Shown here piece after piece: positions 745-55,577 of a DNA stretch of 64,000 bases. Position numbers and translations under genes: made by a program. The stretch covers positions 111,641,195 to 111,705,194 of the forward strand of contig CP136065.1 in NCBI GenBank assembly GCA_032622095.1, in the 5' to 3' direction. How positions within the stretch are numbered: position 1 is the stretch's first letter; each line of letters begins with the position of its first letter. The notes under the pieces were generated by a model. The model made no database searches and was not told the DNA's origin. It saw only the letters and a program-made list of their open reading frames with translations. Origin of the DNA: Siphonodentalium dalli (Eukaryota > Mollusca > Scaphopoda > Gadilida > Siphonodentaliidae).

Positions 745-802
745 TCAGGCCAGCAGATACTCACACCAGACTGACGCTGCGACGGCTTGGCCGTGTGTTT
801 AA
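734..802 (+). other. Short chimeric ORF from the H4 start codon into the LINE
   Basis: The severed H4 start (Met-Ser-Gly-Arg) continues in frame into the LINE 5' end for 22 codons and stops at TAA 800-802. It would act as an upstream ORF on any transcript that starts at the H4 promoter and reaches LINE ORF1 at 861. Translation is inferred, not shown. Confidence 0.4.
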
Positions 803-860
803 CCCGCTTCCAGGGTGTTTCCCGCTTCTATTTGTATTTTTTCTTCTCACATGTTTCAAG

Positions 861-2081
861 ATGGCTGAGCTGGATCCGCGGCTCAACACTTCCAAAGATT
901 CCATCATTCAAGGTATGTGCGACACACCACCTGCACCACCTGCTCCACCCGTCACCGACGCACCTTCTGCACCACCGGAACCACCACCTCCGCCTCCCGT
1001 TCAGAAGGTTTATATCTCTACAGATGGGTATGAAGTCGCGTCCACTGACCCACTGGATCCGTACAAGGGTACTTATGGCGAAAATACGTCCCTTCTTTCG
1101 GACGACGTGAAACAAAGCTTGTGGGGTAGAACTACCAACATTTTTCTTCGTGGTCCCCGCCCGGGACGCGTAAATGCCACATTGTTGGCGGAGAAGATTT
1201 CTGAAAGGATGCCCCAAGTCGGCATTACGGCGATCCATCGAGGTCAGGACAGCCGGGAATGGACAATTGTGTTTTCGACGGATGGTTTCGTTCAAGATTT
1301 TAGGCACCTCACACCTCCATTTTCTCCCATGGCAGGGATCACTACTGTCGCAGAACTTTCCCGGTACGAGCCTCGGGCGCACACCGTAAAAATTAATTGG
1401 CTCCCGTTTAGCGTCCCGCATTCGGTAGTCATCGCGCACCTCACAGAATACGGGACGGTGCTGGAGATAGAGTACGAATCCTTCCGAGCCGTCGGCCAAG
1501 AAATCGCCAACGGCCGTCGGCGGCTTCGCATGAAATTTATTAAACCCGATATAACCGACTTTCCCGACTTCGGCATGCTGGCTGGATATAAAGTTTTCTA
1601 CACGGTCGCGGGGAGATCGCCCTTATGCTTGAAATGTGGGCAGCGTGGCCACGTGCGCATGACTTGCCCAGACAACAACTTTTCCCCGTCGGGAGTGCTA
1701 TCTCGGCCGACGGATTACGCGGCGGCAGTCCGCCGCCATAGAGGCCGGCCAGAATCACCTTCAGTGCAGCCCCCGGATGATGGTCACGTGACCCTGTCAA
1801 CGTTCGAGACACCATTAGCACCAGGGCAGGACTATATGCCTCCTCCCTCTTTCCAGGAGGGGGGGCTCCACAATGATTTCCAGTTGTCCGAGTCCGGGTC
1901 AGACGATTTGGATGTGGAAAAAGTTTCGGAATCGGACAGTCCTCTGTCCCCTGCCATTTACCGTATGGAAGTGATGGACACTCGCGCGGTTGGGGGGGGC
2001 AGTAAGCGACAGCATGAGGGTGACGAGGAACGTCACCCTCCTGCCAAGTTGAATGTGCGGGAAGGCCCAGCACCTGATTAA
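861..2081 (+). CDS. LINE ORF1 protein, CCHC zinc-knuckle RNA-binding protein
   Basis: 406 residues from the ATG at 861, preferred over the in-frame ATG at 795 because it has A at -3 and G at +4 and the extra 22 residues are merely hydrophobic. Visible parts: a proline-rich N terminus (residues 23-46), a central region (about 85-250) with two stretches that look RRM-like (NIFLRGP... and VKINWLP...), a CX2CX4HX4C zinc knuckle (C256, C259, H264, C269), then a Ser/Pro/acidic low-complexity C terminus. ORF1 proteins of this group bind the element RNA and form the retrotransposition particle. It lies 249 bp before ORF2. The RRM assignment is tentative; the knuckle is certain. Confidence 0.85.
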   Translation: MAELDPRLNTSKDSIIQGMCDTPPAPPAPPVTDAPSAPPEPPPPPPVQKVYISTDGYEVASTDPLDPYKGTYGENTSLLSDDVKQSLWGRTTNIFLRGPRPGRVNATLLAEKISERMPQVGITAIHRGQDSREWTIVFSTDGFVQDFRHLTPPFSPMAGITTVAELSRYEPRAHTVKINWLPFSVPHSVVIAHLTEYGTVLEIEYESFRAVGQEIANGRRRLRMKFIKPDITDFPDFGMLAGYKVFYTVAGRSPLCLKCGQRGHVRMTCPDNNFSPSGVLSRPTDYAAAVRRHRGRPESPSVQPPDDGHVTLSTFETPLAPGQDYMPPPSFQEGGLHNDFQLSESGSDDLDVEKVSESDSPLSPAIYRMEVMDTRAVGGGSKRQHEGDEERHPPAKLNVREGPAPD

Positions 2082-2330
2082 TGTGTTTTAATATGATTGT
2101 GTATATTTATTCTCTTCGACCCTCGCTAACGTCCCTGATTTTCCCTTTTGCCTTCTGGATATATTATGTTGCCTTTTTCTTCACGACCTCTCGCTTTTCC
2201 TCTGATTTTTGCGCCTGCCCACCGACTCAACTTTACGCCAGATCCATTGGGGACTGGCTGTTCTTTGTGTCTTTCTGTATCTATTTATGTGTCCCTTGTC
2301 TCGTTTCGTATCTCACCTTTTCGACTTTCC

Positions 2331-5300
2331 ATGGATAAACTTCACATAGCCTCTTTAAATGCGTGCGGTCTTCGCAATACTAAGACTATTCTGGCCCTTA
2401 AGTATCTCTTCCTTTTTGATAGGGTCGACGTGCTTTTCCTTCAGGAAACGCACGTCGACGACTATCAACTTGGACAGGACCTACAATATAAATTAGATTG
2501 CAAAGGTTTTTGGTCCTATGGTACTAACCGCTCATGCGGCACGGTGATTTTTATTCGAAATTCCCTAAAACACACCGTGATCAAATCTTTTTCGGATATG
2601 GACGGCCGCTGCGCGGGCGTCGATGTCGACGTCTCCGGAGTGGCTTTCCGTTTCCTTTCCTTTTATGGTCCTCAAGCACCCGACCAGAATAGAGACCTTG
2701 TTTTTCAAACTTTACTCCCCCATTTAGTCACCAGCCGATCAGTCATTTTAGGTGGGGATTTTAATTTTATAGTTCATCCAAAATACGACAAAATTGGTGG
2801 CCGGACCCTTGTTCCCGCCTATGCCAAAGAATGGCACAAAAAATTTATGGATTTTGGCCTCGTTGATTTTTATAGGCATGGTAACCCTACCACTGTCCAT
2901 ACTACTCGTCATAGCGCAAATGTCCATACGCGCCTGGACAAATTTTATATCTCCCGATCTCTGCTGACAGACCCCCCCAACTATTCTTCCCAAACTTTCC
3001 CCCACTCTGATCACGATGTCATTAGTATCTTTTTCACAACGATCCCCCGATCCGCTATTGGCCCCGGATATTGGAAGGCCAACACTTCCCTTTTTCTTGA
3101 TCCTGATTTCAAGTCTGATTTCTGTACCTTTTGGTATGATCGCACCGCTTCTGTGTCTGGCATTCATGTCACACAGGAGTGGTGGGATCAGATCAAGGCG
3201 GATATTAGAGCTTTTATTCAGAATTATGCCAATATTAAGGCATCAAATACTAGAGCTTCCCTTCGAAAATTGGAACGAGAATATAAACTTTTACTTCAGG
3301 CTGAGCACTTACATCCTGGCAGATATGCAGACCAGCTCGCCCCTCTTCGTGCTAGCATCCAATCCTTTCATGCTCGGAACGCTGAGGGTGCTTATATCCG
3401 TTCGCGCTCAAATGTTTTAAATTCCCATGACGGTTCTGCCCAATTTTTCCATTCCCTAGAACGCTCACGCAGTGCCAAAAAAATCATTACTTCCGTCACC
3501 ACTGCTGGTACGACCTATACTTCGACTTCCGATATTATAACTCAATTTACGGCTTTTTGGTCTCAGCTCTTCACCAAAGAGGACACCGATTCTCAAGCTG
3601 CTGATTCTTTTCTAACTGACCTACATAGCTTGTCTGTCCCAGACGCGGACCTCTGTGAAGCCACTCTTCGTGTTGAAGAATTACACACTGCGCTTTTTGA
3701 CATGTCTTCCGGCAAATCCCCCGGCTCGGATGGCCTCCCTGCAGAATTCTACAAGACTTTTGCCCCACAAATTTTACCTCGATTATTACAGCTTTACAAC
3801 AACTGCTTTCACGATAAACTTCCCTTTTCACAGCGGACATCGCTTATTACTATGCTCCCGAAAGACCCAGCTCATCCTGAAATTGTGTCTAATTATAGGC
3901 CCATCAGCCTTCTTAATGTAGATTATAAAATTTTGTCTAAATCCCTTTGTAACCGACTTAAATTGGTCATTTCTTCTATTGTCCAAGAAGATCAAACGTG
4001 TGGAGTTCCGGGACGCACTATCATGGATAATTTACATTTACTTCGGAATATTCAAGACTATTGTAAACAGAAAAATCTCCCATGCGCTTTCGTTAGCCTC
4101 GATCAACAGAAGGCATTCGATCGAGTTGATCATGATTATTTATTCCGCACCCTTTCTTCCTTTGGCTTTGGACCCAACTTTGTCTCTTGGGTCCGTCTTT
4201 TATATACTGACATTTATTCTAGTCTTTATATCAACCAACACACTTCCGACCCCTTTCCAGTAACTCGGTCAGTCCGCCAGGGATGCAGTCTTTCCCCGCT
4301 TTTATATATCTTGTGCTTAGAACCCCTGCTACATCACTTTCGCAATAACCCCTCGATCACCGGGCTAACTGTGCCCGGTGCTCCGACCCCCTTTAAAACT
4401 ACAGCGTATGCTGATGACGTGACCTTAATACTTACTACCGATGCCTCCATCGGAGCCGCATTACAAACGATCGATCGTTATGGCTCAGCGTCCGGTGCTC
4501 GGCTCAACTTAACTAAATCGGTCGGGTTATTTATCGGTCGCTGGGGTCATCGTACGGACACTCCGTACGGTCTCCGGTGGTCCGCTTCCCACAAAATTTT
4601 AGGCCTGCTTTTTGGTTCGGCAGTAACTACCGATGACCATTTCCACAACTTATTTCAGAAATTTTCTAAAACTTTACAATTTGGTCGCACCGTCAATTTA
4701 GCTCAATTCACCAAAGCCTCGTATCTCAATGTCTATTGCTTTAGCAAACTATGGTATTACACGTCTATTGTGCCTTTGTCCGCCCATTATATCCGGCTTT
4801 TTCAGAGAGCAGCTTTTCGTTTTTTTTGGACTACTTTAATTGAGCCCCTCCCGCGGTCCTTACTTTATGCACCGAAAAGTGCAGGAGGTGCCGATATTGC
4901 CCATTTACAAAGTAAATGCAATACCCTCCTCCTTCGTCACATCCAACGGTTGCTGACCAACCCCACCGCTCGATGGTCCGTTTTTGCTATATATTGGATA
5001 GGGTTCCATCTCCGGGAATACGTCCCCGCTTTCGCTGCTCGTAGCATCGCGCACTGTGATCCGGCGTATATTCCCCCCTTTTATCTGTCTTGCTTGCGTG
5101 CTTTCGCTGCCTTTCGTGATCTTCCCGATTTTCCCCTACTGCCCACCATCGATTCCAAAATTATTTATCACCATTTACTGAAGCCCATTATTACTGCCCC
5201 GCCCCTTACCATTCGTTTTCCTAAACTACCCTTTACTTTGCTCTGGATGAACCTCCATAATGTACATGTCGATCCGGCCCTTCGTGGGCTCCTTTATCGG

Positions 5301-5825
5301 GTTATCCACGGCGTTTTATTCACAAGACTTCGCATTAAGCGCTTCACAACAACATTTCCTTATGTGAACTGTTCCTTCTGTAATAAAGCTCCGGAGGACC
5401 TACAACATCTCTTCGTCGATTGCGAAGTGGTCCAACCCTTATGGGATTTAATATTCACCTGGATCAATAATATTATACCCGGTAATAAATTCCGACCACA
5501 CTTAGGTCACATTCGATTTCTTATCGTCCGCGCTCGAAACCCTTCCCATCGCGCCCTGGCTCTCATCTTAATTACAGAGGCCATTGCCGCAATTTGGTAT
5601 ACCAGAAATCCTATACATGTTGCTCAGCGCACGCTAAAATATCATGTAACTACCCGGATAGTCCATCCGCCACATATCCCCATTTTGGCCTTTTTATCAC
5701 GGCTTCGAACCCGCGTTTTAGTCGATCATCATCGGCTGTCCAGTAATAGTTTCGCCGAATTATGGCTCCTTTCCCCTGACATATGTACTCTTGATGACGA
5801 TGATTTAGTAACCTTCTCATTTTAA
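2331..5825 (+). CDS. LINE ORF2 protein: APE endonuclease and reverse transcriptase
   Basis: 1164 residues from the ATG at 2331. An upstream in-frame ATG at 2148 would add 61 residues without family features, while the endonuclease fold starts directly after 2331. APE motifs: N10 in SLNACG, E39 in LQETH, D143/N145 in GGDFN, and S226-D227-H228 near the domain end. Reverse transcriptase: YRPISLLN, motif A with D591 in SLDQQKAFD, motif B RQGCSLSPLL, catalytic YADD at 693-696. A C-terminal CX2CX8HX4C motif (C1014, C1017, H1026, C1031) within a WxxL...HLFxxC context resembles the zf-RVT domain. The enzyme nicks the target and primes reverse transcription there. No stop or frameshift is seen, so activity is plausible. 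Confidence 0.93.
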   Translation: MDKLHIASLNACGLRNTKTILALKYLFLFDRVDVLFLQETHVDDYQLGQDLQYKLDCKGFWSYGTNRSCGTVIFIRNSLKHTVIKSFSDMDGRCAGVDVDVSGVAFRFLSFYGPQAPDQNRDLVFQTLLPHLVTSRSVILGGDFNFIVHPKYDKIGGRTLVPAYAKEWHKKFMDFGLVDFYRHGNPTTVHTTRHSANVHTRLDKFYISRSLLTDPPNYSSQTFPHSDHDVISIFFTTIPRSAIGPGYWKANTSLFLDPDFKSDFCTFWYDRTASVSGIHVTQEWWDQIKADIRAFIQNYANIKASNTRASLRKLEREYKLLLQAEHLHPGRYADQLAPLRASIQSFHARNAEGAYIRSRSNVLNSHDGSAQFFHSLERSRSAKKIITSVTTAGTTYTSTSDIITQFTAFWSQLFTKEDTDSQAADSFLTDLHSLSVPDADLCEATLRVEELHTALFDMSSGKSPGSDGLPAEFYKTFAPQILPRLLQLYNNCFHDKLPFSQRTSLITMLPKDPAHPEIVSNYRPISLLNVDYKILSKSLCNRLKLVISSIVQEDQTCGVPGRTIMDNLHLLRNIQDYCKQKNLPCAFVSLDQQKAFDRVDHDYLFRTLSSFGFGPNFVSWVRLLYTDIYSSLYINQHTSDPFPVTRSVRQGCSLSPLLYILCLEPLLHHFRNNPSITGLTVPGAPTPFKTTAYADDVTLILTTDASIGAALQTIDRYGSASGARLNLTKSVGLFIGRWGHRTDTPYGLRWSASHKILGLLFGSAVTTDDHFHNLFQKFSKTLQFGRTVNLAQFTKASYLNVYCFSKLWYYTSIVPLSAHYIRLFQRAAFRFFWTTLIEPLPRSLLYAPKSAGGADIAHLQSKCNTLLLRHIQRLLTNPTARWSVFAIYWIGFHLREYVPAFAARSIAHCDPAYIPPFYLSCLRAFAAFRDLPDFPLLPTIDSKIIYHHLLKPIITAPPLTIRFPKLPFTLLWMNLHNVHVDPALRGLLYRVIHGVLFTRLRIKRFTTTFPYVNCSFCNKAPEDLQHLFVDCEVVQPLWDLIFTWINNIIPGNKFRPHLGHIRFLIVRARNPSHRALALILITEAIAAIWYTRNPIHVAQRTLKYHVTTRIVHPPHIPILAFLSRLRTRVLVDHHRLSSNSFAELWLLSPDICTLDDDDLVTFSF

Positions 5826-6692
5826 CTCCACTCTTCTCTTTACCCCTGTTTATATGTCTGTATGCTTAATTTCTTTATTTCAGGTACTTGCTGTGTCCTG
5901 GTACACATATACCTTAATTTGTTTTCTTTATTTTCTCGTTTCAGGCAGTTTCTGTGCGCTCGGTCCACATATGTCTTTTTATATTTTATTTAGACCTTCT
6001 TCCTCTTTAACTATCTATCTTACTTGCTGCCCCCCCCCGTTTCTAACCCCCCGACCCGTCTCTGATTAATGTGCCTGCCTGTTGGTTTTCAACTCACGGC
6101 GTGCCGGGCTGGGCGGTGTGACCCGTTCACGGCACATGTCGTTCAGCCGGGTGCTTCGTGCGTGACCCGCTTCACATTCTTACATAATATTATTGCTCTC
6201 AATGCTTTCGACTACGCCCGTGCGTATGTTTACTTTTATTAGGTGACTTGTACTCTTACTTTTCATTGTCTCTTTCCATTTTCTCTTTTGTCTGTCACTT
6301 GTACTCTTATGCTTCTCATTTTCTTTCCTTCTTCCTTCTTTCCTTCCTTTCTTTTATGTTTGTTTATTCCTTTTCTTCCTTTATTGTTATGCATTATTCC
6401 ATTTTCGTATTTAATTCTTTTTTTGTCTCGTTACAGTTACGTACATCATTTTTCTATTTTTCAACTTGTTGCCTTAATATTAATTTTATTAAAGTTTCTG
6501 CCCGTGAGAAGATGACCCGTAGAAGAGGCCGAGTGCCCACGTTTTTTGTTTTATTTTCATCGAGGGTCCAGGCGACTGTGATGATCCGGTTAATTATTGC
6601 TCGTTGACCACATTATTATTTCCCGTACATTCCATCCTGGCTCGGTACTGGTTTGTGGTCCCGTGAGCTCTAAGACCAGACTGAGTCGTTTT
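5826..6692 (+). other. LINE 3' UTR
   Basis: Pyrimidine-rich non-coding stretch between the ORF2 stop and the poly(A) tail. Its last 200 bases are less biased and are presumably the part read by the reverse transcriptase. No similarity was seen by eye to the 3' ends of elements E1-E10, so this LINE is not an obvious driver of that family. Confidence 0.7.
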
Positions 6693-7068
<376 letters not shown>

Positions 7069-8129: not shown

Positions 8130-8340
8130 CGTGAAACGAGATGAAAATTATTTTACTTGACGAAATGTCGAGAAAATATGGATCGCCCTGATAGGGGGTT
8201 TGGGAAACTTTCCCGGGAAGATTTGAAAGGGGCGGAACCCCTCTCCTACAACCCACTGTTGAATTTAATTTGGAACATGTAATGGTGTTACATTAACATG
8301 AGATTGGTGAGGGTGAAATGAAAATGATCTAGACATAGAA

Positions 8341-9123
8341 TTATTTCTTTTTCTTGGCTTTCTTTTTTTTTCTGTGTTGAAGGTCTGTTTGTTGTTGTTG
8401 TTGTTGAAGTTCTGTTTGTTGTTGTTCCTTTAGATCTAAGGCCGCCATCAATTTATGGGCGGATGCCTGAGCCTCCAGCGCCAACTTAACATTTTCTTCG
8501 ATAGAGCGAGTGGAGCTGGTGCTGGTGGTACTGTTGTTGTTGTTGTTGTTGGTGCTGGTGGAGCTGGAGGACACCGGGATGTTTTGGTAATCCGGTGTCC
8601 GAGGTGTAAAGTCCAGTTCCACGTCGAAGCTGGCGGCAGGAACATTTGGGGTGGTATCCACGTCCCTGTCTCCGCTAGCCTCGACGACGACAGCAGGGAC
8701 CTCCGGCAGATCCACGGAATCCCTGCTAGTTGGTGCTATGTCGTCAGTCTCCATGCAGGTCGAGTCGTCTGGGCGTCTCTCAGACAACTTCGACCCGCCG
8801 GCTTTGACTATAGACGGCTGAGCCACACGGGGAGGGGTGACCGGTCGATCAACGGTCACCCCCATCTTCTTCTTCCATTTCGCCCGTCTGGCTGCGTCCC
8901 TTCTCCTTCGAGCTGGTGTCTTTTTCTTAGGAGGCTCCTTTTTCATGGTACGGCTGGTCTTGGTCTTGCTCCAGGTGGAAGATTTCTGGTTTCCAGCATC
9001 TCCCGTCCTGAATTCAACACAGAGAGTCAAATGGCCTCTGTTAGACTGGAGATTCCAGCTAACAATATCCGCAATTTGAGATCTCTCTAGTGCTGCTAAC
9101 GCGGCGTCAGGGATTAGCTCCAT
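8341..9123 (-). CDS. E1 element protein, unknown function
   Basis: 260 residues from the ATG at 9123 (A at -3, G at +4). Function not recognised. Parts: a conserved N-terminal domain (about residues 1-40) with SWNLQS and LTLCVEF, a strongly basic segment (61-87, RRRRDAARRAKWKKK), an acidic Ser/Pro/Thr middle, an Asn run, a short helical Ala/Leu/Gln cassette (the shortest in the family), a Gln run and a terminal Lys tail (KKKKAKKKK). The basic parts suggest nucleic-acid binding and nuclear location. It may be an ORF1-like protein of a retroelement lacking ORF2; that is inference. The start of its variable cassette (SIEENVKLALE) resembles E5. Confidence 0.7.
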   Translation of the reverse strand: MELIPDAALAALERSQIADIVSWNLQSNRGHLTLCVEFRTGDAGNQKSSTWSKTKTSRTMKKEPPKKKTPARRRRDAARRAKWKKKMGVTVDRPVTPPRVAQPSIVKAGGSKLSERRPDDSTCMETDDIAPTSRDSVDLPEVPAVVVEASGDRDVDTTPNVPAASFDVELDFTPRTPDYQNIPVSSSSTSTNNNNNNSTTSTSSTRSIEENVKLALEAQASAHKLMAALDLKEQQQTELQQQQQQTDLQHRKKKKAKKKK

Positions 9124-9174
9124 TGTCCGTCGCACTAAGCCTAATCCAAAACCGTCTCACTCAGGCCGGCATCA

Positions 9175-9228
9175 GCACGAGGGCGGTTGCTTCCAATTAA
9201 GGTTACAGACCGCACAAATCACTCGTGC
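9175..9228 (-). ncRNA. Conserved hairpin in the E1 leader RNA
   Basis: Outer arms GCACGAG (9175-9181) and CTCGTGC (9222-9228), inner arms GCGGT (9183-9187) and ACCGC (9209-9213). In E4 and E6 the outer arms are GCACGGG/CCCGTGC, so one A-T pair became G-C with pairing kept; in E2, E3, E5 and E8-E10 a G-U wobble replaces one pair. This covariation supports a real RNA structure, perhaps for packaging or translation. Confidence 0.5.
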
Positions 9229-9311
9229 CGACGCTCTGACACCGCAAGGAACTAATGGAGTCAAATAAAATCTGACTTGTTCGCTCCACTTGCTGCCAGA
9301 GATGGATCGCC

Positions 9312-10506
9312 TGATAGGGGGTTTGGGAAACTTTCCCGGGAAGATTTGAAAGGGGCGGAACCCCTCTCCTACAACCCACTGTTGAATTTAATAAGGATAC
9401 ATGTAATGGTGTGACATTAACATGAGATTGGTGAGGGTGAAAATGAAAATGATCTAGACATAGAATTATTTCTTTTTCTTTGCTTTCTTTTTTTTTCTGT
9501 GTTGAAGTTCTGTTTGTTGTTGTTGTTGTTGTTCGAGTTTAATTTGCTGTAGTTGTTGTTGGAATGCTTCTCTCCGTTCTGTGTCTTGTGCTGCTGCTAC
9601 TGCCTGCCGCCGATGGGACTCTAAGTTGTCAGCTTTCATCTGCCGTTGGGCCTCTAAGGTGTCAGCCCTCATGTCTGCCATGATTTTATTGATATCAGCG
9701 ACATCAGCGGCTACGATCTCTTCCGCAGAACGGGTGGAGGCTGTGCTGGTGTTGTTGTTGGTGCTGGTGGAGCTGGGGGACACCGGGATGTTTTGGTAAT
9801 CCGGTGTCCGAGGTGTAAAGTCCAGTTCCACGTCGAAGCTGGCGGCAGGAACATCTGGGGTGGTATCCACGTCCCTGTCTCCGCAAGCCTCGACGACGAC
9901 AGCAGGGATCTCCGGCAGATCCACGGAATCCCTGCTAGTTGGTGCTATGTCGTCAGTCTCCATGCAGGTCGAGTCGTCTGGGCGTCTCTCAGACAACTTC
10001 GACCCGCCGGCTTTGACTATAGACGGCTGAGCCACACGGGGAGGGGTGACCGGTCGATCAACGGTCGCCCCCATCTTCTTCTTCCATTTCGCCCGTCTGG
10101 CTGCGTCCCTTCTCCTTCGAGCTGGTGTCTTTCTCTTAGGAGGCTCCTCTTTCATGTTACGGCTGGTCTTGGTCTTGCTCCAGGTGGAAGATTTCTGGTT
10201 TCCAGCATCTCCCGTCCTGAATTCAACGCAGAGAGTCAAATAGCCTCTGTTAGACTGGAGATTCCAGCTAACAATATCCGCAATTTGAGATCTCTCTATC
10301 GCTGCTAACGCGGCGTCAGGGATTAACTCCATTGTCCGTCGCACTAAGCCTAATCCAAAACCGTCTCACTCGCCGGCATCAGCACGAGGGCGGTTGCTTC
10401 CAATTAAGGTTACAGACCGCTCAAATCACTCGTACCGACGCTCTGACACCGCAAGGAACTAATGGAGTCAAATAAAATCTGACTTGTTCGCTCCACTTGC
10501 TGCCAG
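9312..10506 (-). mobile_element. E2: middle element of unit 1
   Basis: Lies between target copies at 9302-9311 and 10507-10516, directly abutting E1 and E3 through single shared targets. Sequence is nearly identical to E1 outside the ORF's C-terminal cassette. Confidence 0.85.
9466..10332 (-). CDS. E2 element protein, unknown function
   Basis: 288 residues from the ATG at 10332. N-terminal two thirds almost identical to the E1 and E5 proteins. The cassette after the Asn run is a long predicted coiled coil rich in Ala, Asp, Arg and Gln (with repeated MADMRADTLEAQ- and MKADNLESHRRQ-like stretches), unlike that of any other copy, then a Gln run and the Lys tail. Confidence 0.7.
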   Translation of the reverse strand: MELIPDAALAAIERSQIADIVSWNLQSNRGYLTLCVEFRTGDAGNQKSSTWSKTKTSRNMKEEPPKRKTPARRRRDAARRAKWKKKMGATVDRPVTPPRVAQPSIVKAGGSKLSERRPDDSTCMETDDIAPTSRDSVDLPEIPAVVVEACGDRDVDTTPDVPAASFDVELDFTPRTPDYQNIPVSPSSTSTNNNTSTASTRSAEEIVAADVADINKIMADMRADTLEAQRQMKADNLESHRRQAVAAAQDTERREAFQQQLQQIKLEQQQQQQTELQHRKKKKAKKKK

Positions 10507-10516
10507 ATGGATCGCC

Positions 10517-11757
10517 TGATAGGGGGTTTGGGAAACTTTCCCGGGAAGATTTGAAAGGGGCGGAACCCCTCTCCTACAACCCACTTGAAATTTAATGAGG
10601 ATACATGAAATGGTTTTACATAACATGAGATTGGTGAGGTGAAAATGAAAATGATCTATTTTTTTTTTTTTGATTTCTTTGCTTTCTTTTTTCGTCGGTT
10701 TGGTATTGCTGTAGTTGATGCTGTGGCTGTGTCCGAGTCAGAACTGGATTTTTCTTCTGTTTTTTCCAGTGGAGGAGGGTGTTTTGACAGGTAGATGTTT
10801 CCATCTTGCATTTTGTACATGCCTTTTGCAGGGTCCAGCTCGTCAGGTCCTCTGTAGATAACGTGATCCCTCATCAGGAAGAAATCGCGGTTGGTGATTG
10901 GGAGTTTCTTTCCTGCTGCGTGGTATTTGAGAATCGTCCTCTGGAGGTCATCACGCTCTTGGTCGATCTGATCTTCTGTTGGCGACGCCGGCTTCTCGTC
11001 GTACCTCGGCGTCGGAGGGGCGGAGATGGTGCTGTCCGCCCCTGGTGGAGAGTGGCTGGGTGGTGTTTCCATCTCCACGTTGAAACTGGCGGCAGGAACA
11101 TCGGGGGTGGAATCCGCGTCCCTGTATCCGCTCGTCTCTGTGCCAACAGCAGGGACGTCCGGCAGATCTACGGAGTCCCTGCTAGCTGATCTGATGTCAC
11201 CTATCTCCATGCAGGCCGGGTCGTCTGGGCGTCTCTCAGACAACTCCGGCCTACCGGCTGTGACACTGGATGGCTGAACCACACGGGGAGGGGTGACCGG
11301 TCGATCAACGGTCGCCCCCATCTTCTTCTTCCATTTCGCCCGTCTGGCTGCGTCCCTTCTCCTTCGAGCTGGTGTCTTTCTCTTAGGAGGCTCCTCTTTC
11401 ATGGTACGGCTGGTCTTGGTCTTGCTCCAGGTGGAAGATCTCTGGTATCCAGCATCTCCCGTCCTGAATTCAACGCAGAGAGTCAAATAGCCTCTGTTAG
11501 ACTGGAGATTCCAGCTAACAATATCCGCAATTTGAGATCTCTCTATCGCTGCTAACGCGGCGTCAGGGATTAACTCCATTGTCCGTCGCGCTAAGCCTAA
11601 TCCAAAACCGTCTCACTCGCCGGCATCAGCACGAGGGCGGTTGCTTCCAATTAAGGTTACAGACCGCTCAAATCACTCGTACCGACGCTCTGACACCGCA
11701 AGGAACTAATAGAGCCAAATAGAATCTGACTTGTTCGCTCCACTTGCTGCCAGAGAG
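10517..11757 (-). mobile_element. E3: promoter-proximal element of unit 1
   Basis: Longest copy (1.24 kb), bounded by targets at 10507-10516 and 11758-11767. The latter abuts the H2B TATA box, so in this stack E3 would be transcribed first. The 3' region is slightly diverged (GAGGATACATGAAATGG in place of the usual form). Confidence 0.85.
10656..11579 (-). CDS. E3 element protein with an unrelated C-terminal cassette
   Basis: 307 residues. Residues 1 to about 110 match the other copies; the acidic middle is diverged, and from about residue 175 the protein is unrelated: a Pro-rich linker, then a stretch with DQERDDLQRTILKYHAAG, NRDFFLMRDHVIYRGPDE and MQDGNIYLSKHP that looks like a folded domain rather than a coiled coil, then a Ser/Asp/Thr segment and the usual Lys tail. 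No Asn or Gln runs are present. I do not recognise the domain. Confidence 0.7.
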   Translation of the reverse strand: MELIPDAALAAIERSQIADIVSWNLQSNRGYLTLCVEFRTGDAGYQRSSTWSKTKTSRTMKEEPPKRKTPARRRRDAARRAKWKKKMGATVDRPVTPPRVVQPSSVTAGRPELSERRPDDPACMEIGDIRSASRDSVDLPDVPAVGTETSGYRDADSTPDVPAASFNVEMETPPSHSPPGADSTISAPPTPRYDEKPASPTEDQIDQERDDLQRTILKYHAAGKKLPITNRDFFLMRDHVIYRGPDELDPAKGMYKMQDGNIYLSKHPPPLEKTEEKSSSDSDTATASTTAIPNRRKKKAKKSKKKK

Positions 11758-11932
11758 ATGGATCGCCGGCAGAAACCGTTTTCTTTTATATCGCGAGTGC
11801 GCTCTAACGCGGATCAAACATAGCCCCCAGTTACTATTTTAAGCACACAAAGCTTCAGTTTTTAAACACGGACTTCGGCGAAAGCACATTATTGGCTCAT
11901 TTATGTAGGTCGATCCGCAAAGGAGTATAAAT
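11756..11932. promoter_or_regulatory. H2B/H2A divergent promoter (unit 1), cut off from H2B
   Basis: H2B TATA box ATATAAAAG on the minus strand at 11783-11791 and H2A TATAAAT at 11926-11932, with an inverted CCAAT (ATTGG) at 11891-11895 between them. The H2A side is intact. On the H2B side the start region is the E-element target, so transcription runs into E3. Confidence 0.75.
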
Positions 11933-22091: not shown

Positions 22092-23103
<1,012 letters not shown>

Positions 23104-27462: not shown

Positions 27463-27671
27463 CGTGAAACGAGATGAAAATTATTTTACTTGACGAAATG
27501 TCGAGAAAATATGGATCGCCTGATAGGGGGTTTGGGAAACTTTCCCGGGAAGATTTGAAAGGGGCGGAACCCCTCTCCTACAACCCACTGTTGAATTTAA
27601 TAAGGATACATGTAATGGTGTTACATTAACATGAGATTGGTGAGGGTGAAAATGAAAATGATCTAGACAAG

Positions 27672-28538
27672 TTATTTCTTTTTCTTCGGTTTCTTTTTTT
27701 TTCTGTGTTGAATTTCTGTTTGCTGTAGTTGTTGTTGTTGAGTTTGTTGGAGCACAGCTGCCTGTTCTTCTCCTTCCCGTTCTGTCTGTGCCTGTCGCCG
27801 ATCATATTCTTTCTCTTGTTTCTCTTTTCTCTCTTGCCGCTCAGATTTTTCAGATTCTAGCTGCCGTCGGTGATCTGCCATCATTTGGTTACATTCAGCG
27901 ACGATCTCTTCCACAGATTGGGAGGGGGCTGTGCTGGTGTTGTTGTTGGTGCTGGTGGAGCTGGGGGACACCGGGATGTTTTGATAATCCGGTGTCCGAG
28001 GTGTAAAGCTGTCCAGTTCCACGTCGAAGCTGGCGGCAGGAACATCTGGGGTAGTATCCACGTCCCTGTCTCCGCAAGCTTCGATGACGACAGCAGGGAC
28101 CTCCGGCAGATCCACGGAGTCCCTGCTAGCTGGTTCAATGTCATCAGTCTCCATGCAGGTCGAGTCGTCTGGGCGTCTCTCAGACAACTTCGACCCGCCG
28201 GCTGTGACTGTAGATGGCTGAACCACACGGGGAGGGGTGACCGGTCGATCAACGGTCGCCCCCATCTTCTTCTTCCACTTCGCCCGTCTAGCAGCGTCCC
28301 TTCGGCGCCTAGAAGGAGTCTTTTTCTTCGTAGGCCCGGTCTTCATCTTCGGCATGGTGCAGCGGGTGGCTTTGGCGTTGACGTCCAGGTCTTTAGATTT
28401 CTGGTTTCCAGCATCTTTGGTCCTGAACTCCAAGCAAAGTGTAAGGTAGCCCCCGCTAGACTGGAGAGACCAACTAGCGATGTTAACTACCGAACTACTT
28501 TGCACTGCAAGCAACGCGGCTTCGGGGATCAAGTCCAT
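27672..28538 (-). CDS. E4 element protein (subfamily B), unknown function
   Basis: 288 residues starting MDLIPEAALLAVQ. The N-terminal domain (SWSLQSSGGYLTLCLEFRT) and basic segment (KKKTPSRRRRDAARRAKWKK) align with the other copies at lower identity, with a small Lys-rich insertion; the acidic middle is nearly identical. The variable cassette is a highly charged coiled coil (SEKSERQERKEKQEKEYD-like) ending in AAVLQQTQQQQ, an ending it shares with E8, then the Lys tail. Confidence 0.7.
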   Translation of the reverse strand: MDLIPEAALLAVQSSSVVNIASWSLQSSGGYLTLCLEFRTKDAGNQKSKDLDVNAKATRCTMPKMKTGPTKKKTPSRRRRDAARRAKWKKKMGATVDRPVTPPRVVQPSTVTAGGSKLSERRPDDSTCMETDDIEPASRDSVDLPEVPAVVIEACGDRDVDTTPDVPAASFDVELDSFTPRTPDYQNIPVSPSSTSTNNNTSTAPSQSVEEIVAECNQMMADHRRQLESEKSERQERKEKQEKEYDRRQAQTEREGEEQAAVLQQTQQQQLQQTEIQHRKKKKPKKKK

Positions 28539-28581
28539 AATCCGTCCTAAGCCTAATCCAAAACCATCTCACTGGCGCTAA

Positions 28582-28630
28582 GCACGGGGGCAGCTGCAAC
28601 CTAGATCGCGACCGCACAACTCACCCGTGC
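28582..28630 (-). ncRNA. Conserved leader hairpin of E4, covarying form
   Basis: Arms GCACGGG (28582-28588) and CCCGTGC (28624-28630): the counterpart of the E1 hairpin with a compensatory A-T to G-C change. Confidence 0.5.
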
Positions 28631-28712
28631 TCAGTGTCTGACAAGAGGAACAGCAGACAGACAAAGCAATAATGAACTGTCCCGCTCGACTCCTGCCAGA
28701 ATATGGATCGCC

Positions 28713-29857
28713 TGATAGGGGGTTTGGGAAACTTTCCCGGGAAGATTTGAAAGGGGCGGAACCCCTCTCCTACAACCCACTGTTATTTAATATAAAAGTA
28801 CATGTAATGGTAATACATTAAACATGAGATTGATGAAGGTGAAGTGAAAATGATCTAGACAGTTATTTCTTTTTCTTGGCTTTCTTTTTTTTTCTTTGTT
28901 GGAGTTCTGTTTGTTGTTGTTGTTGTTGTATTTGGAGATCTATTTGTAGTTGTTCCTGTTGTCGCAGTCTTTGCCGGAACATCAGGGTGTCGGCCTTGGC
29001 CGACGCCAACAGTATGTCGGCTTCTGCCTGAGTCTCCAGCGCCAACTTAACTGTTTCTTCGATAGAGCGAGTGGAGCTGGTGCTGGTGGTACTGTTGTTG
29101 TTGTTGGTGCTGGTGGAGCTGGAGGACACCGGGATGTGATTGTAATCCGGTGTCCGAGGTGTATAGCTATCCAGTTCCACGTCGAAGCTGGCGGCAGGAA
29201 CATCTGGGGTGGTATCCACGTCCCTGTCTCCGCTAGCCTCGACGACGACCGCAGGGATCTCCGGCAGATCCACGGAATCCCTGCTAGTTGGTGCTATGTC
29301 GTCAGTCTCCATGCAGGTCGAGTCGTCTGGGCGTCTCTCAGACAACTTCGACCCGCCGGCTTTGACTATAGACGGCTGAGCCACACGGGGAGGGGTGACC
29401 GGTCGATCAACGGTCGCCCCCATCTTCTTCTTCCATTTCGCCCGTCTGGCTGCGTCCCTTCTCCTTCGAGCTGGTGTCTTTCTCTTAGGAGGCTCCTCTT
29501 TCATGTTACGGCTGGTCTTGGTCTTGCTCCAGGTGGAAGATTTCTGGTTTCCAGCATCTCCCGTCCTGAATTCAACGCAGAGAGTCAAATAGCCTCTGTT
29601 AGACTGGAGATTCCAGCTAACAATATCCGCAATTTGAGATCTCTCTATCGCTGCTAACGCGGCGTCAGGGATTAACTCCATTGTCCGTCGCACTAAGCCT
29701 AATCCAAAACCGTCTCACTCGCCGGCATCAGCACGAGGGCGGTTGCTTCCAATTAAGGTTACAGACCGCTCAAATCACTCGTACCGACGCTCTGACACCG
29801 CAAGGAACTAATAGAGTCAAATAAAATCTGACTTGTTCGCTCCACTTGCTGCCAGAG
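28713..29857 (-). mobile_element. E5: promoter-proximal element of unit 5
   Basis: Between target copies at 28701-28712 and 29858-29869. The latter abuts the H2B TATA box. Confidence 0.85.
28863..29681 (-). CDS. E5 element protein, unknown function
   Basis: 272 residues from the ATG at 29681; a GTG 12 bases upstream is in frame but less likely. N-terminal 180 residues nearly identical to E2. The cassette starts like E1 (SIEETVKLALETQ) but continues differently (ADILLASAKADTL, then a Gln/Leu-rich helix). Confidence 0.7.
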   Translation of the reverse strand: MELIPDAALAAIERSQIADIVSWNLQSNRGYLTLCVEFRTGDAGNQKSSTWSKTKTSRNMKEEPPKRKTPARRRRDAARRAKWKKKMGATVDRPVTPPRVAQPSIVKAGGSKLSERRPDDSTCMETDDIAPTSRDSVDLPEIPAVVVEASGDRDVDTTPDVPAASFDVELDSYTPRTPDYNHIPVSSSSTSTNNNNSTTSTSSTRSIEETVKLALETQAEADILLASAKADTLMFRQRLRQQEQLQIDLQIQQQQQQTELQQRKKKKAKKKK

Positions 29858-33807: not shown

Positions 33808-34987
33808 TGATAGGGGGTTTGGGAAACTTTCCCGGGAAGATTTGAAAGGGGCGGAACCCCTCTCCTACAACCCACTGTTGAATTTAATAAGGATACATGT
33901 AATGGTGTTACATTAACATGAGATTGGTGAGGGTGAAAATGAAAATGATCTAGACAAGTTATTTCTTTTTCTTCGGTTTCTTTTTTTTTCTGTGTTGAAT
34001 TTCTGTTTGCTGTAGTTGTTGTTGTTGAGTTTGTTGGAGCACAGCTGCCTGTTCTTCTCCTTCCCGTTCTGTCTGTGCCTGTCGCCGATCATATTCTTTC
34101 TCTTGTTTCTCTTTTCTCTCTTGCCGCTCAGATTTTTCAGATTCTAGCTGCCGTCGGTGATCTGCCATCATTTGGTTACATTCAGCGACGATCTCTTCCA
34201 CAGATTGGGAGGGGGCTGTGCTGGTGTTGTTGTTGGTGCTGGTGGAGCTGGGGGACACCGGGATGTTTTGATAATCCGGTGTCCGAGGTGTAAAGCTGTC
34301 CAGTTCCACGTCGAAGCTGGCGGCAGGAACATCTGGGGTAGTATCCACGTCCCTGTCTCCGCAAGCTTCGATGACGACAGCAGGGACCTCCGGCAGATCC
34401 ACGGAGTCCCTGCTAGCTGGTTCAATGTCATCAGTCTCCATGCAGGTCGAGTCGTCTGGGCGTCTCTCAGACAACTTCGACCCGCCGGCTGTGACTGTAG
34501 ATGGCTGAACCACACGGGGAGGGGTGACCGGTCGATCAACGGTCGCCCCCATCTTCTTCTTCCACTTCGCCCGTCTAGCAGCGTCCCTTCGGCGCCTAGA
34601 AGGAGTCTTTTTCTTCGTAGGCCCGGTCTTCATCTTCGGCATGGTGCAGCGGGTGGCTTTGGCGTTGACGTCCAGGTCTTTAGATTTCTGGTTTCCAGCA
34701 TCTTTGGTCCTGAACTCCAAGCAAAGTGTAAGGTAGCCCCCGCTAGACTGGAGAGACCAACTAGCGATGTTAACTACCGAACTACTTTGCACTGCAAGCA
34801 ACGCGGCTTCGGGGATCAAGTCCATAATCCGTCCTAAGCCTAATCCAAAACCATCTCACTGGCGCTAAGCACGGGGGCAGCTGCAACCTAGATCGCGACC
34901 GCACAACTCACCCGTGCTCAGTGTCTGACAAGAGGAACAGCAGACAGACAAAGCAATAATGAACTGTCCCGCTCGACTCCTGCCAGA
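33808..34987 (-). mobile_element. E6: duplicate of E4
   Basis: Same length and sequence as E4, carried along when the whole histone unit was duplicated rather than by a new insertion. Confidence 0.85.
33959..34825 (-). CDS. E6 element protein, identical to E4
   Basis: 288 residues, identical to the E4 protein including its variable cassette. Confidence 0.7.
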   Translation of the reverse strand: MDLIPEAALLAVQSSSVVNIASWSLQSSGGYLTLCLEFRTKDAGNQKSKDLDVNAKATRCTMPKMKTGPTKKKTPSRRRRDAARRAKWKKKMGATVDRPVTPPRVVQPSTVTAGGSKLSERRPDDSTCMETDDIEPASRDSVDLPEVPAVVIEACGDRDVDTTPDVPAASFDVELDSFTPRTPDYQNIPVSPSSTSTNNNTSTAPSQSVEEIVAECNQMMADHRRQLESEKSERQERKEKQEKEYDRRQAQTEREGEEQAAVLQQTQQQQLQQTEIQHRKKKKPKKKK

Positions 34988-34999
34988 ATATGGATCGCC

Positions 35000-36144
35000 T
35001 GATAGGGGGTTTGGGAAACTTTCCCGGGAAGATTTGAAAGGGGCGGAACCCCTCTCCTACAACCCACTGTTATTTAATATAAAAGTACATGTAATGGTAA
35101 TACATTAAACATGAGATTGATGAAGGTGAAGTGAAAATGATCTAGACAGTTATTTCTTTTTCTTGGCTTTCTTTTTTTTTCTTTGTTGGAGTTCTGTTTG
35201 TTGTTGTTGTTGTTGTATTTGGAGATCTATTTGTAGTTGTTCCTGTTGTCGCAGTCTTTGCCGGAACATCAGGGTGTCGGCCTTGGCCGACGCCAACAGT
35301 ATGTCGGCTTCTGCCTGAGTCTCCAGCGCCAACTTAACTGTTTCTTCGATAGAGCGAGTGGAGCTGGTGCTGGTGGTACTGTTGTTGTTGTTGGTGCTGG
35401 TGGAGCTGGAGGACACCGGGATGTGATTGTAATCCGGTGTCCGAGGTGTATAGCTATCCAGTTCCACGTCGAAGCTGGCGGCAGGAACATCTGGGGTGGT
35501 ATCCACGTCCCTGTCTCCGCTAGCCTCGACGACGACCGCAGGGATCTCCGGCAGATCCACGGAATCCCTGCTAGTTGGTGCTATGTCGTCAGTCTCCATG
35601 CAGGTCGAGTCGTCTGGGCGTCTCTCAGACAACTTCGACCCGCCGGCTTTGACTATAGACGGCTGAGCCACACGGGGAGGGGTGACCGGTCGATCAACGG
35701 TCGCCCCCATCTTCTTCTTCCATTTCGCCCGTCTGGCTGCGTCCCTTCTCCTTCGAGCTGGTGTCTTTCTCTTAGGAGGCTCCTCTTTCATGTTACGGCT
35801 GGTCTTGGTCTTGCTCCAGGTGGAAGATTTCTGGTTTCCAGCATCTCCCGTCCTGAATTCAACGCAGAGAGTCAAATAGCCTCTGTTAGACTGGAGATTC
35901 CAGCTAACAATATCCGCAATTTGAGATCTCTCTATCGCTGCTAACGCGGCGTCAGGGATTAACTCCATTGTCCGTCGCACTAAGCCTAATCCAAAACCGT
36001 CTCACTCGCCGGCATCAGCACGAGGGCGGTTGCTTCCAATTAAGGTTACAGACCGCTCAAATCACTCGTACCGACGCTCTGACACCGCAAGGAACTAATA
36101 GAGTCAAATAAAATCTGACTTGTTCGCTCCACTTGCTGCCAGAG
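35000..36144 (-). mobile_element. E7: duplicate of E5
   Basis: Same relation to E5 as E6 to E4; target copies flank it at 34988-34999 and 36145-36156. Confidence 0.85.
35150..35968 (-). CDS. E7 element protein, identical to E5
   Basis: 272 residues, identical to the E5 protein. Confidence 0.7.
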   Translation of the reverse strand: MELIPDAALAAIERSQIADIVSWNLQSNRGYLTLCVEFRTGDAGNQKSSTWSKTKTSRNMKEEPPKRKTPARRRRDAARRAKWKKKMGATVDRPVTPPRVAQPSIVKAGGSKLSERRPDDSTCMETDDIAPTSRDSVDLPEIPAVVVEASGDRDVDTTPDVPAASFDVELDSYTPRTPDYNHIPVSSSSTSTNNNNSTTSTSSTRSIEETVKLALETQAEADILLASAKADTLMFRQRLRQQEQLQIDLQIQQQQQQTELQQRKKKKAKKKK

Positions 36145-40094: not shown

Positions 40095-41279
40095 TGATAG
40101 GGGGTTTGGGAAACTTTCCCGGGAAGATTTGAAAGGGGCGGAACCCCTCTCCTACAACCCACTGTTGAATTTAATAAGGATACATGTTATGGTAATACAT
40201 AAGCATGAATTGGTGAAGGTGAAATGGAAATGATCTAGACATTATTTCTTTTTCTTGGCTTTCTTTTTTTTCCGCTGTTGAGTTTCTGTTTGCTGTAGTT
40301 GTTGTTGTTGAGTTTGTTGGAGCACAGCTGCCAGTTCTTCTCTCCGTTCTGTCCGCTCCTGTTCAAATACTGTCCGCTCCTGTTCATATTCTTTCATTCG
40401 CCGATCAGAATCTTTCTGTTCCTGTATTCTTTGTAATCTGTGTTCTTCTCTAAATCTTTGTGTATCAGCGATAATCTCTGCAATCTCTGCCTCAGAACGG
40501 GTGGAGGCTGTGCTGGTGTTGTTGTTGGTGCTGGTGGAGCTGGGGGACACCGGAATATGTTGGTAATCCGGTGTCCGAGGTGTAAAACTGTCCAGTTCCA
40601 CGTCGAAGCTGGCGGCAGGAACATCTGGGGTGGAATCCACGTCCCTGTCTCCGCAAGCTTCGACGACGACAGCAGGGACATCCGGCAGATCCACGGAGTC
40701 CCTGCTAGCTGGTCCAATGTCGTCAGTCTCCATGCAGGTCGAGTCGTCTGGGCGTCTCTCAGACAACTTCGACCCGCCGGCTTTGACTTTGGACGGCTGA
40801 GCCACACGGGGAGGGGTGACCGGTCGATCAACGGTCGCCCCCATCTTCTTCTTCCATTTCGCCCGTCTGGCTGCGTCCCTTCTCCTTCGAGCTGGTGTCT
40901 TTCTCTTAGGAGGCTCCTCTTTCATGTTACGGCTGGTCTTGGTCTTGCTCCAGGTGGAAGATTTCTGGTTTCCAGCATCTCCCGTCCTGAATTCAACGCA
41001 GAGAGTCAAATAGCCTCTGTTAGACTGGAGATTCCAGCTAACAATATCCGCAATTTGAGATCTCTCTATCGCTGCTAACGCGGCGTCAGGGATTAACTCC
41101 ATTGTCCGTCGCACTAAGCCTAATCCAAAACCGTCTCACTCGCCGGCATCAGCACGAGGGCGGTTGCTTCCAATTAAGGTTACAGACCGCTCAAATCACT
41201 CGTACCGACGCTCTGACACCGCAAGGAACTAATGGAGTCAAATAAAATCTGACTTGTTCGCTCCACTTGCTGCCAGAGT
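40095..41279 (-). mobile_element. E8: H2B-proximal element of unit 7
   Basis: Between target copies at 40083-40094 and 41280-41291. The element pair in this unit is different from that in units 5 and 6, so these are independent insertions. Confidence 0.85.
40242..41102 (-). CDS. E8 element protein, unknown function
   Basis: 286 residues from the ATG at 41102. Conserved N-terminal domain and basic segment. The cassette (EIIADTQRFREEHRLQRIQEQ followed by two near-repeats of YEQERTVFEQERTERRE type) is a charged coiled coil, ending AAVLQQTQQQQ as in E4, so cassette parts appear to be shuffled. Confidence 0.7.
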   Translation of the reverse strand: MELIPDAALAAIERSQIADIVSWNLQSNRGYLTLCVEFRTGDAGNQKSSTWSKTKTSRNMKEEPPKRKTPARRRRDAARRAKWKKKMGATVDRPVTPPRVAQPSKVKAGGSKLSERRPDDSTCMETDDIGPASRDSVDLPDVPAVVVEACGDRDVDSTPDVPAASFDVELDSFTPRTPDYQHIPVSPSSTSTNNNTSTASTRSEAEIAEIIADTQRFREEHRLQRIQEQKDSDRRMKEYEQERTVFEQERTERREELAAVLQQTQQQQLQQTETQQRKKKKAKKKK

Positions 41280-53839: not shown

Positions 53840-54211
53840 TTACTTGCTGCTGGTGTACTTCGTGACGGCCTTGGTGCCCTCAGAGACGGCGTGCTTGGCC
53901 AATTCACCTGGGAGAAGAAGTCTGACGGCGGTCTGGACCTCTCTGGAGGTGATGGTGGATCGTTTGTTGTAGTGGGCCAATCGGGAGGCCTCAGCTGCGA
54001 TCCTCTCGAAAATGTCGTTGACAAAGCTGTTCATGATGGACATGGCTTTGCTGCTGACACCGGTGTCTGGGTGTACCTGTTTCAAGACTTTGTAGATGTA
54101 GATTCCGTAGGATTCCTTCCTTTTTCGGTGCCTCTTCTTGGTGCCGGTCGTTGACGCCTTCTGGGTCTTGGTGGCCTTTTTGGCTCCTTTGCTTCCTGCT
54201 TTGGGTGGCAT
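53840..54211 (-). CDS. H2B: Histone H2B (unit 10), promoter displaced by one element
   Basis: Identical protein; TATA box at 55428-55436, 1.2 kb upstream, beyond E10. This is the cleanest case of a single insertion. Confidence 0.95.
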
Positions 54212-54269
54212 CGTGAAACGAGATGAAAATTATTTTACTTGACGAAATGTCGAGAAAATATGGATCGCC

Positions 54270-55400: not shown

Positions 55401-55577
55401 ATATGGATCGCCGGCAGAAACCGTTTTCTTTTATATCGCGAGTGCGCTCTAACGCGGATCAAACATAGCCCCCAGTTACTATTTTAAGCACACAAAGCTT
55501 CAGTTTTTAAACACGGACTTCGGCGAAAGCACATTATTGGCTCATTTATGTAGGTCGATCCGCAAAGGAGTATAAAT
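55401..55577. promoter_or_regulatory. H2B/H2A divergent promoter (unit 10), cut off from H2B
   Basis: H2B TATA at 55428-55436 faces E10; H2A side intact. Confidence 0.75.

Follow-up and report, generated by a model that had tools for sequence, protein, structure and literature searches.

R1 and R2 are retroelements of ribosomal DNA (rDNA) that read a DNA sequence at their target, encode their own endonuclease and reverse transcriptase, and use the promoter of the host gene for transcription. Element E, a retroelement family of the scaphopod mollusc Siphonodentalium dalli (assembly GCA_032622095.1; 2.23 Gb genome, nine contigs), likewise occupies a precise site in a tandem multigene family. 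It is described here from a window of 64,000 nucleotides (nt), C5:111641195-111705194 (contig CP136065.1), in which ten copies (E1-E10) lie in the H2B promoters of five histone units. The original prediction, made from the letters of this window, compared E in its logic with R1 and R2 and held it to be specific for histone genes. The comparison stands as logic only: no endonuclease or reverse transcriptase was found in copies of E, and its targets are many unrelated sequences on all nine contigs, in contrast to the single target sequence in a tandem array that marks the R1/R2 class. E is probably a non-autonomous, ORF1-only family (ORF, open reading frame) of the non-LTR (long terminal repeat) type, with integration directed to TATA-containing RNA polymerase II core promoters.

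HeT-A and HAL1 resemble E in having an ORF1/Gag-like protein and no reverse transcriptase. HeT-A adds to telomeres and HAL1 occupies dispersed sites, and we know of no start-site insertion by either. Tf1 of fission yeast, an LTR element with an integrase, prefers RNA polymerase II promoters as E does, but its insertions lie upstream of the start and lack nucleotide precision. To our knowledge, the described target-specific non-LTR elements read either DNA sequence (R1, R2, and others) or the RNA polymerase III machinery (TRE5). No histone-targeted or start-site-targeted non-LTR element was met with in the accessible portions of the open-licence full-text literature, where absence carries little weight.

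Ty3 of yeast inserts 1-4 bp from a start site via a TBP-containing factor (PMC5911963); unlike E, it is an LTR element with an integrase and has RNA polymerase III targets. TRE5-A of Dictyostelium discoideum lies at RNA polymerase III (tRNA) genes, about 47 bp upstream and opposite to the direction of the gene (PMC5391098, PMC5911963). Target detection is ascribed to its ORF1 protein, which binds TBP along with further proteins of TFIIIB, and TRE5-A.2, which lacks all of ORF2 and keeps ORF1, is moved in trans (PMC5391098, PMC5911963). TRE5-A.1 and TRE5-A.2 share with E the non-LTR type and a fixed distance from a TBP-bound start region, and TRE5-A.2 is also ORF1-only. The two differ in their targets: TRE5-A enters polymerase III genes, whereas E lies in sense orientation at what would be the start of TATA promoters, with a 13-nt duplication over the start. 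E would be the polymerase II counterpart of TRE5-A.2, a likeness in working mode for which no sequence relation is claimed. The fixed distance to a TBP site that characterizes the TBP-guided class is seen in E as a TATA peak at -35 in part of the targets, and is weaker in truncated copies.

Genomic distribution and target layout of element E

The window contains twelve histone units, each with H4, H2B, and H2A genes, and 12 histone 3′ stem-loops of each type (Rfam). Further histone stem-loops were not found in the window with Rfam, H3 and H1 not having been sought by sequence. The insertion site ATATGGATCGCC lies 47-58 bp upstream of the H2B start codon; when one mismatch is allowed, the window has 22 occurrences of it, all on the + strand, against 0.25 expected from shuffling. 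Since twelve of these are unit sites and each element adds one more, ten elements occupy five of the twelve units, and the site is uninterrupted in the other seven, just as had been predicted. The elements are about 1.1-1.2 kb long, and all ten lie at one position before H2B with their ORF in the same direction as that gene. At the empty H2B site, the duplicated stretch forms CCATATT, just where the start of transcription is expected; we take this motif to be initiator-like, and it would mark the transcription start region.

E is dispersed throughout the genome. In the counts that follow, numbers of scored matches are lower bounds. The exact 3′ tail occurs 165 times in the genome (84 + 81) and its reversed control not once, while subfamily A is represented by 152 exact 5′ ends; positions were obtained for 100 of the 165 tails, with C5 in full, and for 100 of the 152 5′ ends. 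The E ORF has at least 142 scored matches, on all nine contigs, and subfamily B has at least 40, of which 38 lie outside the C5 histone array. A search with a 215-nt tail query scored at least 40 places, which are taken as E because the query extends into the last codons of the E ORF. The C5 histone array, 0.3 Mb in length, holds 24 of the 165 exact tails, 15 of them directly before an H2B gene. Within this array, an exact tail of type A or B, the only types counted, lies 63-77 bp before the ATG in at least 15 of 37 full-length H2B genes, and exactly 64 bp before it in 11 of those 15.

Histone-only targeting is rejected because copies occur across the whole genome, and the proposed specificity for histone genes or for ATATGGATCGCC finds no support. 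Many copies genome-wide lie at sites with unrelated flanks, the outcome that the original prediction had named as speaking against it.

The targets tend to have a TATA box at a set distance. Loci fetched from the genome (L numbers) contain 75 5′ junctions with an intact start word, which reduce to 63 unique flanks; nine of these follow another element in a stack and 54 consist of host DNA, giving 50 independent targets after near-identical flanks are merged. Counting from the first base of the element, 18 of the 50 targets have an exact TATAWA whose first T falls at -39 to -31 (mean 0.66 and maximum 4 in 300 shuffles), and 32 have a five-of-six match there (shuffle mean 6.6, maximum 14). Seven other windows of equal size in the same 50 flanks contain 0-3 exact and 2-7 loose matches, and the position of the box peaks sharply at -35. 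The same spacing appears in a whole-genome pattern count for subfamily A: TATAA-N28..32-5′ end, which places TATAA 33-37 nt upstream, accounts for 65 of 152 5′ ends, versus 4 of 152 for TATAA-N48..52-5′ end, an equal window 20 nt further up. The 65 TATAA-spaced copies between them cover all nine contigs; 11 are in histone arrays (eight on C5, two on C8, one on C9) and 54 are elsewhere.

Target duplications of at least 10 nt flank 23 of 31 representative copies; by the suffix rule, no duplication of 8 nt or more was found in the remaining eight. The duplication is 12-14 nt long in 20 of the 23, with a mode of 13, and in one of the 23 (L013:8278) the second target copy has no element tail before it. 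An exact box lies upstream in 12 of these 23 copies, TATAWA within 80 bp downstream in one, and a box at the mirror position of the other strand in none. By convention, the first T of the TATA box is at -31, and the duplication would then span about -9 to +4 of the start, which is roughly the DNA melted in the polymerase II open complex.

Histone promoters on other contigs are entered in the same manner. In a display of 13 chosen loci with H2A, H2B, and H4 as queries, sense copies of E lie in the H2B promoters of C9 (L034) and C8 (L012, box TTAAAAGG), and the C8 H2A promoter has been entered twice, also in sense (L011 and L032, with TTTAAATAG). These C8 and C9 copies are within about 30-110 bp of the histone ATG. 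The promoters hit (H2B on C5, C8, and C9; H2A on C8) are unrelated in sequence and similar in layout. Outside histone genes, copies of different subfamilies on different chromosomes entered the same repeated target 2 nt apart (L023 and L061), two subfamily B copies share another target 4 nt apart (L060 and L064), and stacks occur at L053, L013, and L027. Flanks that are unrelated in sequence still tend to have a TATA box in common, some 35 nt upstream, so that what E targets seems to be a layout of promoters and not a gene. The target-specific logic of the original prediction is preserved in this form, with the gene itself no longer the target.

A histone spacer site on C8 that bears a TATA word and has no evident ORF is also a target of E (L012:4031, L020:1936). 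In the window, the matching spacer at about 12868 has TATATAAGAACG at a seemingly similar place, perhaps belonging to an unrecognized transcript.

Structure and class of element E

Element E has the ends of a retroelement. Read in gene orientation, its 5′ end starts, with slight variation, as CTCTGGCAGC in subfamily A or TCTGGCAGGAG in subfamily B, and window copies end in ...CCCGGGAAAGTTTCCCAAACCCCCTATCA(GG) followed by the target copy GGCGATCCATAT, E9 being shortened. Direct reading of these ends upholds the predicted retroposon-type element with an exact site, a target duplication, and no inverted repeats. Four 3′ tails occur on the same body: type A ends in TATCAGG, type B is CATAG followed by (TAG)n, type C ends near CACTCACT with a T-run in some copies, and type D is ACCCATG with poly(A). 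The absence of poly(A) noted in the original prediction applies to the window copies alone; tails of (TAG)n or poly(A) are found on copies elsewhere. Seven copies (L010, L017, L029, L031, L032, L035, L036) start from 3 to about 30 nt inside the element. Such tails and small 5′ truncations are marks of target-primed reverse transcription, and with the duplications of at least 10 nt they place E among non-autonomous non-LTR elements.

Copies read at both ends are about 1.1-1.25 kb long and have a single ORF (264-307 amino acids (aa) in the window). No Pfam family scored above the cut-off in the three E ORFs tested, so that the reverse transcriptase and endonuclease of an autonomous non-LTR element were not found in them, and the conserved ORF, judged by its sequence, is not a reverse transcriptase. 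Longer copies with a reverse transcriptase were sought at eight loci that at first looked longer than 1.2 kb and were rejected: in 11 of 14 copies checked, a candidate target duplication follows the start by about 1.1-1.25 kb, and the tails are of other types. For L026, L032, and L038 among these 14 none was found, and the candidates for L025 lie in a local repeat.

The ratio of nonsynonymous to synonymous substitution (dN/dS) of the ORF is 0.30-0.36 in ten comparisons between subfamilies A (E10, L030, L015, L010, L009) and B (E4, L053) over 180-181 codons, which indicates that the ORF is under coding constraint and argues against a short interspersed nuclear element (SINE). Nine sequences were computed; comparisons with L034 and L055 were dropped because these are apparently frameshifted (proportion of nonsynonymous differences, pN, 0.32-0.65), and pairs within A or within B were left out as too close (0.12 to 1.09). 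The N-terminal half of the protein is conserved, and its C-terminal part is highly variable with lysines at the end. A weak structural model (mean predicted local distance difference test score, pLDDT, 61.6; predicted template modelling score, pTM, 0.22) suggests a helix and a hairpin at the N terminus, then a basic helix and a disordered middle part, with another helix at the C terminus.

The RNA leader is predicted to fold more stably than its shuffles in three subfamilies (z of -2.5, -4.3, and -3.4), with the very first bases paired. Two-sided changes occur at 5 of 34 predicted pairs in an alignment of 11 rows, which fall into three groups and hence represent few independent events. A 5′ ribozyme like that of hepatitis delta virus (HDV) was considered for this leader, in which the first base is paired, and was rejected: Rfam gave no match in the window nor, at a permissive threshold, in 54200-55500, and the pseudoknot could not be placed.

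Proposed mechanism and alternative explanations

In the mechanism proposed here, the polymerase II machinery serves as the presumed cue and the ORF protein as a putative targeting factor. E RNA and its own protein would be brought to a promoter via TBP/TFIID or the open complex. A reverse transcriptase and an endonuclease supplied in trans would nick both edges of the opened region, and the RNA would be copied in by target-primed reverse transcription. Insertion would be in sense, with the first T of the TATA box about 35 nt upstream of the copy, and would duplicate the 12-14 nt from about -9 to +4. The new copy would then stand directly under the host TATA box and be transcribed from there, with the old gene displaced downstream. 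A later copy could use the same TATA box, so stacks would grow with the newest member next to the promoter. H2B and H2A would often be hit because they are multicopy TATA promoters and presumably very active.

The chances are about even that E is the first retroelement family landing on the polymerase II pre-initiation or open complex with near-nucleotide precision; as an ORF1-only element, it would locate starts marked by TBP/TFIID through its protein, make its two cuts where the melted region begins and ends, and persist, having no promoter of its own, by placing each new copy under a host TATA box. If E reads the layout of polymerase II core promoters, it would be a natural genome-wide probe of start sites and would show how a promoterless element can persist, and the finding of transcription complexes by such retroelements would become testable with one small protein. 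The sequence of arrivals at one promoter may be preserved in its stack.

Several observations weigh against promoter-directed integration. No five-of-six TATA word is present at the expected place in 18 of the 50 targets, some of which have weaker AT-rich variants. Outside the 50-target test, 14 copies with truncated starts, including two stacks and two copies that share one flank, have one exact and five loose boxes at -39 to -31, and in three others of the 14, L035, L036, and L070, a TATA word is closer, at about 20-30 nt. The target of L072 is hardly a start site, as it lies antisense in DNA 81% alike a reverse transcriptase of a long interspersed nuclear element (LINE) over 62 codons, and L025 and L036 are in local repeats. 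A reverse-strand TATAWA is found somewhere within the upstream 80 bp in 5 of the 23 copies with long duplications, and the junctions show no clear or common initiator motif across targets. About 8 of the 65 pattern hits, having ORFs of 285-288 aa at 68-69% identity among the E ORF matches, look like one copy of E carried inside another repeat, which would inflate the count of 65. The insertion L040:3734 is inside H2B coding sequence without a TATA box; a copy of the H2B target is on its other side, so it probably arrived there after a rearrangement.

The 5′ ends are precise and free of extra host nucleotides, although transcription that simply began 4 nt upstream should add some; transcription would have to start at the first base of the element, the RNA be trimmed, or the last bases remain uncopied. 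Nor was a reverse transcriptase partner with E tails found among the sampled tails or in the fetched DNA. Judged by eye, all eight unassigned tails sampled resemble E, six of them clearly and two (L105 and L107) less so. Sought by similarity to P0001 only, LINE reverse transcriptase is present in the fetched DNA in the LINE at the H4 start codon described below and in its copies L042, L044, and L045, with further pieces in the L072 flank (81% over 62 aa) and, distantly, in L019 (24%); none was seen joined to an E tail.

Spread of the array copies from one insertion alone by unequal crossing over and gene conversion has next to no probability. Such duplication did occur, since E6 and E7 repeat E4 and E5 and E9 is 99.4% like E10, which reduces the ten copies to about seven distinct insertions. 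The 2.2 kb of flanking histone sequence is 100.00% identical in the seven units compared (five filled, two empty), whereas the window elements, apart from these pairs, are only 70.6-93.7% identical to one another. Identical flanks around elements that differ by up to 29% mark most copies as separate insertions, and a single nucleotide position is common to subfamilies A and B. In comparisons with fetched loci beyond the C5 array, moreover, E4 shares 99.2% identity across 1175 nt with L051 on C4, where no H2B match was obtained; E5 is 98.7% identical to another C4 copy (L017); and the 1184 nt of E8 that were compared agree at 100.000% with the copy in the C8 H2B promoter (L012), whose flanks are different. 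Unit duplication alone is rejected on the strength of the diverged elements in identical flanks and by these close matches elsewhere: most copies are independent arrivals, and at least one pair is very recent. Independent arrival at one site could also reflect an enzyme that recognizes H2B GGCGATCCATAT, with the dispersed copies being accidental, and the 24 of 165 exact tails in the C5 array, the 15 immediately before H2B, and a site constant within one mismatch in all window copies agree with this. The majority of copies lie elsewhere, however, the dispersed target duplications do not resemble GGCGATCCATAT, and H2A and the differing C9 H2B promoter were entered at similar spacing in other sequence. 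A histone-specific element is accordingly highly improbable, and the TATA-spacing results largely refute it.

The near-fixed length of the duplication and the mostly exact ends are also what a DNA transposon with a promoter preference would leave, such as a member of the Dada superfamily, which we take to target small RNA genes. This is very unlikely for E: directly read, the ends CTCTGGCAGC... and ...CCCCCTATCAGG form no terminal inverted repeat, no Pfam transposase was found in three ORFs, and variable tails of (TAG)n or poly(A) are what target-primed reverse transcription would leave, as are slight truncations at the 5′ end and duplications of 12-14 nt. A retroelement enzyme could instead read a motif on bare DNA, a TATA-like word followed by about 22 bp to the cut, with no part played by the transcription machinery, and fixed spacing on a fixed strand is equally expected from it. 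Nothing is strongly conserved between box and cut or in the duplicated stretch, however, the box is missing from about a third of targets, as it also is from promoters, and histone promoters are strongly over-represented, given how many TATA-like words so large a genome must contain. Recognition of such a motif is thus unlikely, and direction to core promoters remains the preferred explanation.

Window features and the LINE at the H4 start codon

The positions of the E copies and of associated features in the window are collected in the table. The stretch 8176-11767 that the original prediction assigned to the element family corresponds to the three-copy stack E1-E3. In one histone unit of the window (22160-22546), the H4 ORF has 128 aa instead of 103 and hence an altered frame.

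Table. Copies of element E and associated features in the window (window positions; sequences in gene orientation)
Feature	Position	Strand	Details
E1, nearest H2B in three-copy stack	8188..9299	-	ORF 8341-9135 (264 aa)
E2, middle of three-copy stack	9312..10504	-	ORF 9466-10344 (292 aa)
E3, promoter-adjacent in three-copy stack	10517..11755	-	ORF 10656-11579 (307 aa)
H2B TATA box (same box) for E3	11784-11790		Sequence reading
E4, subfamily B	27521..28700	-	5′ end TCTGGCAGGAG; ORF 27672-28538 (288 aa)
E5, subfamily A	28713..29857	-	ORF 28863-29693 (276 aa)
E6	33808..34987	-	100% identical to E4 (unit duplication)
E7	35000..36144	-	100% identical to E5 (unit duplication)
E8	40095..41279	-	ORF 40242-41114 (290 aa)
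E9, shortened 3′ end	41292..42418	-	99.4% identical to E10; ORF 41436-42254 (272 aa)
E10	54270..55400	-	ORF 54418-55236 (272 aa)
E10 type A 3′ tail	54270..54420	-	Ends CCCGGGAAAGTTTCCCAAACCCCCTATCA(GG)
E10 5′ leader, predicted structure	55230..55400	-	First 8 nt pair with UGUCAGAG, then second stem; subfamilies differ in part by compensatory changes
Target duplication beside E10	55401..55412	-	GGCGATCCATAT; site matching and junction reading
H2B TATA box TATAAAA	55429..55435	-	First T 35 nt upstream of E10 first base
LINE, separate from the E family	747..6756	+	ORF1 795-2081; ORF2 2148-5825; poly(A); at H4 start codon

A LINE of about 6 kb is inserted at an H4 start codon of the window with a duplication of about AAAAAAAATGTCAGGGCG. 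Its ORF2 contains endonuclease, reverse transcriptase, and zf-RVT domains, and the best PDB match is LINE-1 ORF2p (E 8e-56), with R2 at 3e-20. Its tail differs from the tails of E, so the LINE is not an evident partner of E. In a search with its 3′ untranslated region (UTR) in which 40 of 123 candidates were scored, 16 of the 18 copies that reach 95% identity or more across 499 nt or more are in histone arrays (13 on C5, one on C8, two on C9) and two are elsewhere. Several copies are arranged head-to-tail in tandem at about 6.0 kb spacing. Eleven C5 5′ junctions read ...ATGTCAGGGCG directly before the LINE, four of them being joints of tandem LINEs.

The C8 copy (L097, L085; C8:37456370-37462520) lies just before an H2B start codon, yet its 5′ end carries ATGTCAGGGCG from H4, a sign that its RNA may have been made from the H4 promoter. 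The LINE is not always at H4: one C5 copy whose 5′ end is there has its other end in H2B coding sequence, and the ends of both C9 copies fall in H2B codons. Part of the copies may have been multiplied along with histone units, and the LINE looks histone-array-specific in its own right. The likely loss of promoters by H2A and H2B to E and the presence of a LINE at the H4 start codon together suggest that specialized retroelements can reside in histone arrays as they do in rDNA.

A LINE copy in a C9 H2B gene (L042:570-1900) is interrupted by an insert of about 1.3 kb rich in the palindrome GGACTTAAGTCC. A related LINE, sharing only the first 142 nt or so of the 3′ UTR query, is repeated in the C5 histone region (C5:111431337-111454498), in part at about 5.55 kb spacing, and also lies between two C8 arrays (C8:156656832-156712128). 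C9:143796537-144275759 is a separate histone array whose H2B is only about 79-84% identical to the window H2B, perhaps of a variant type.

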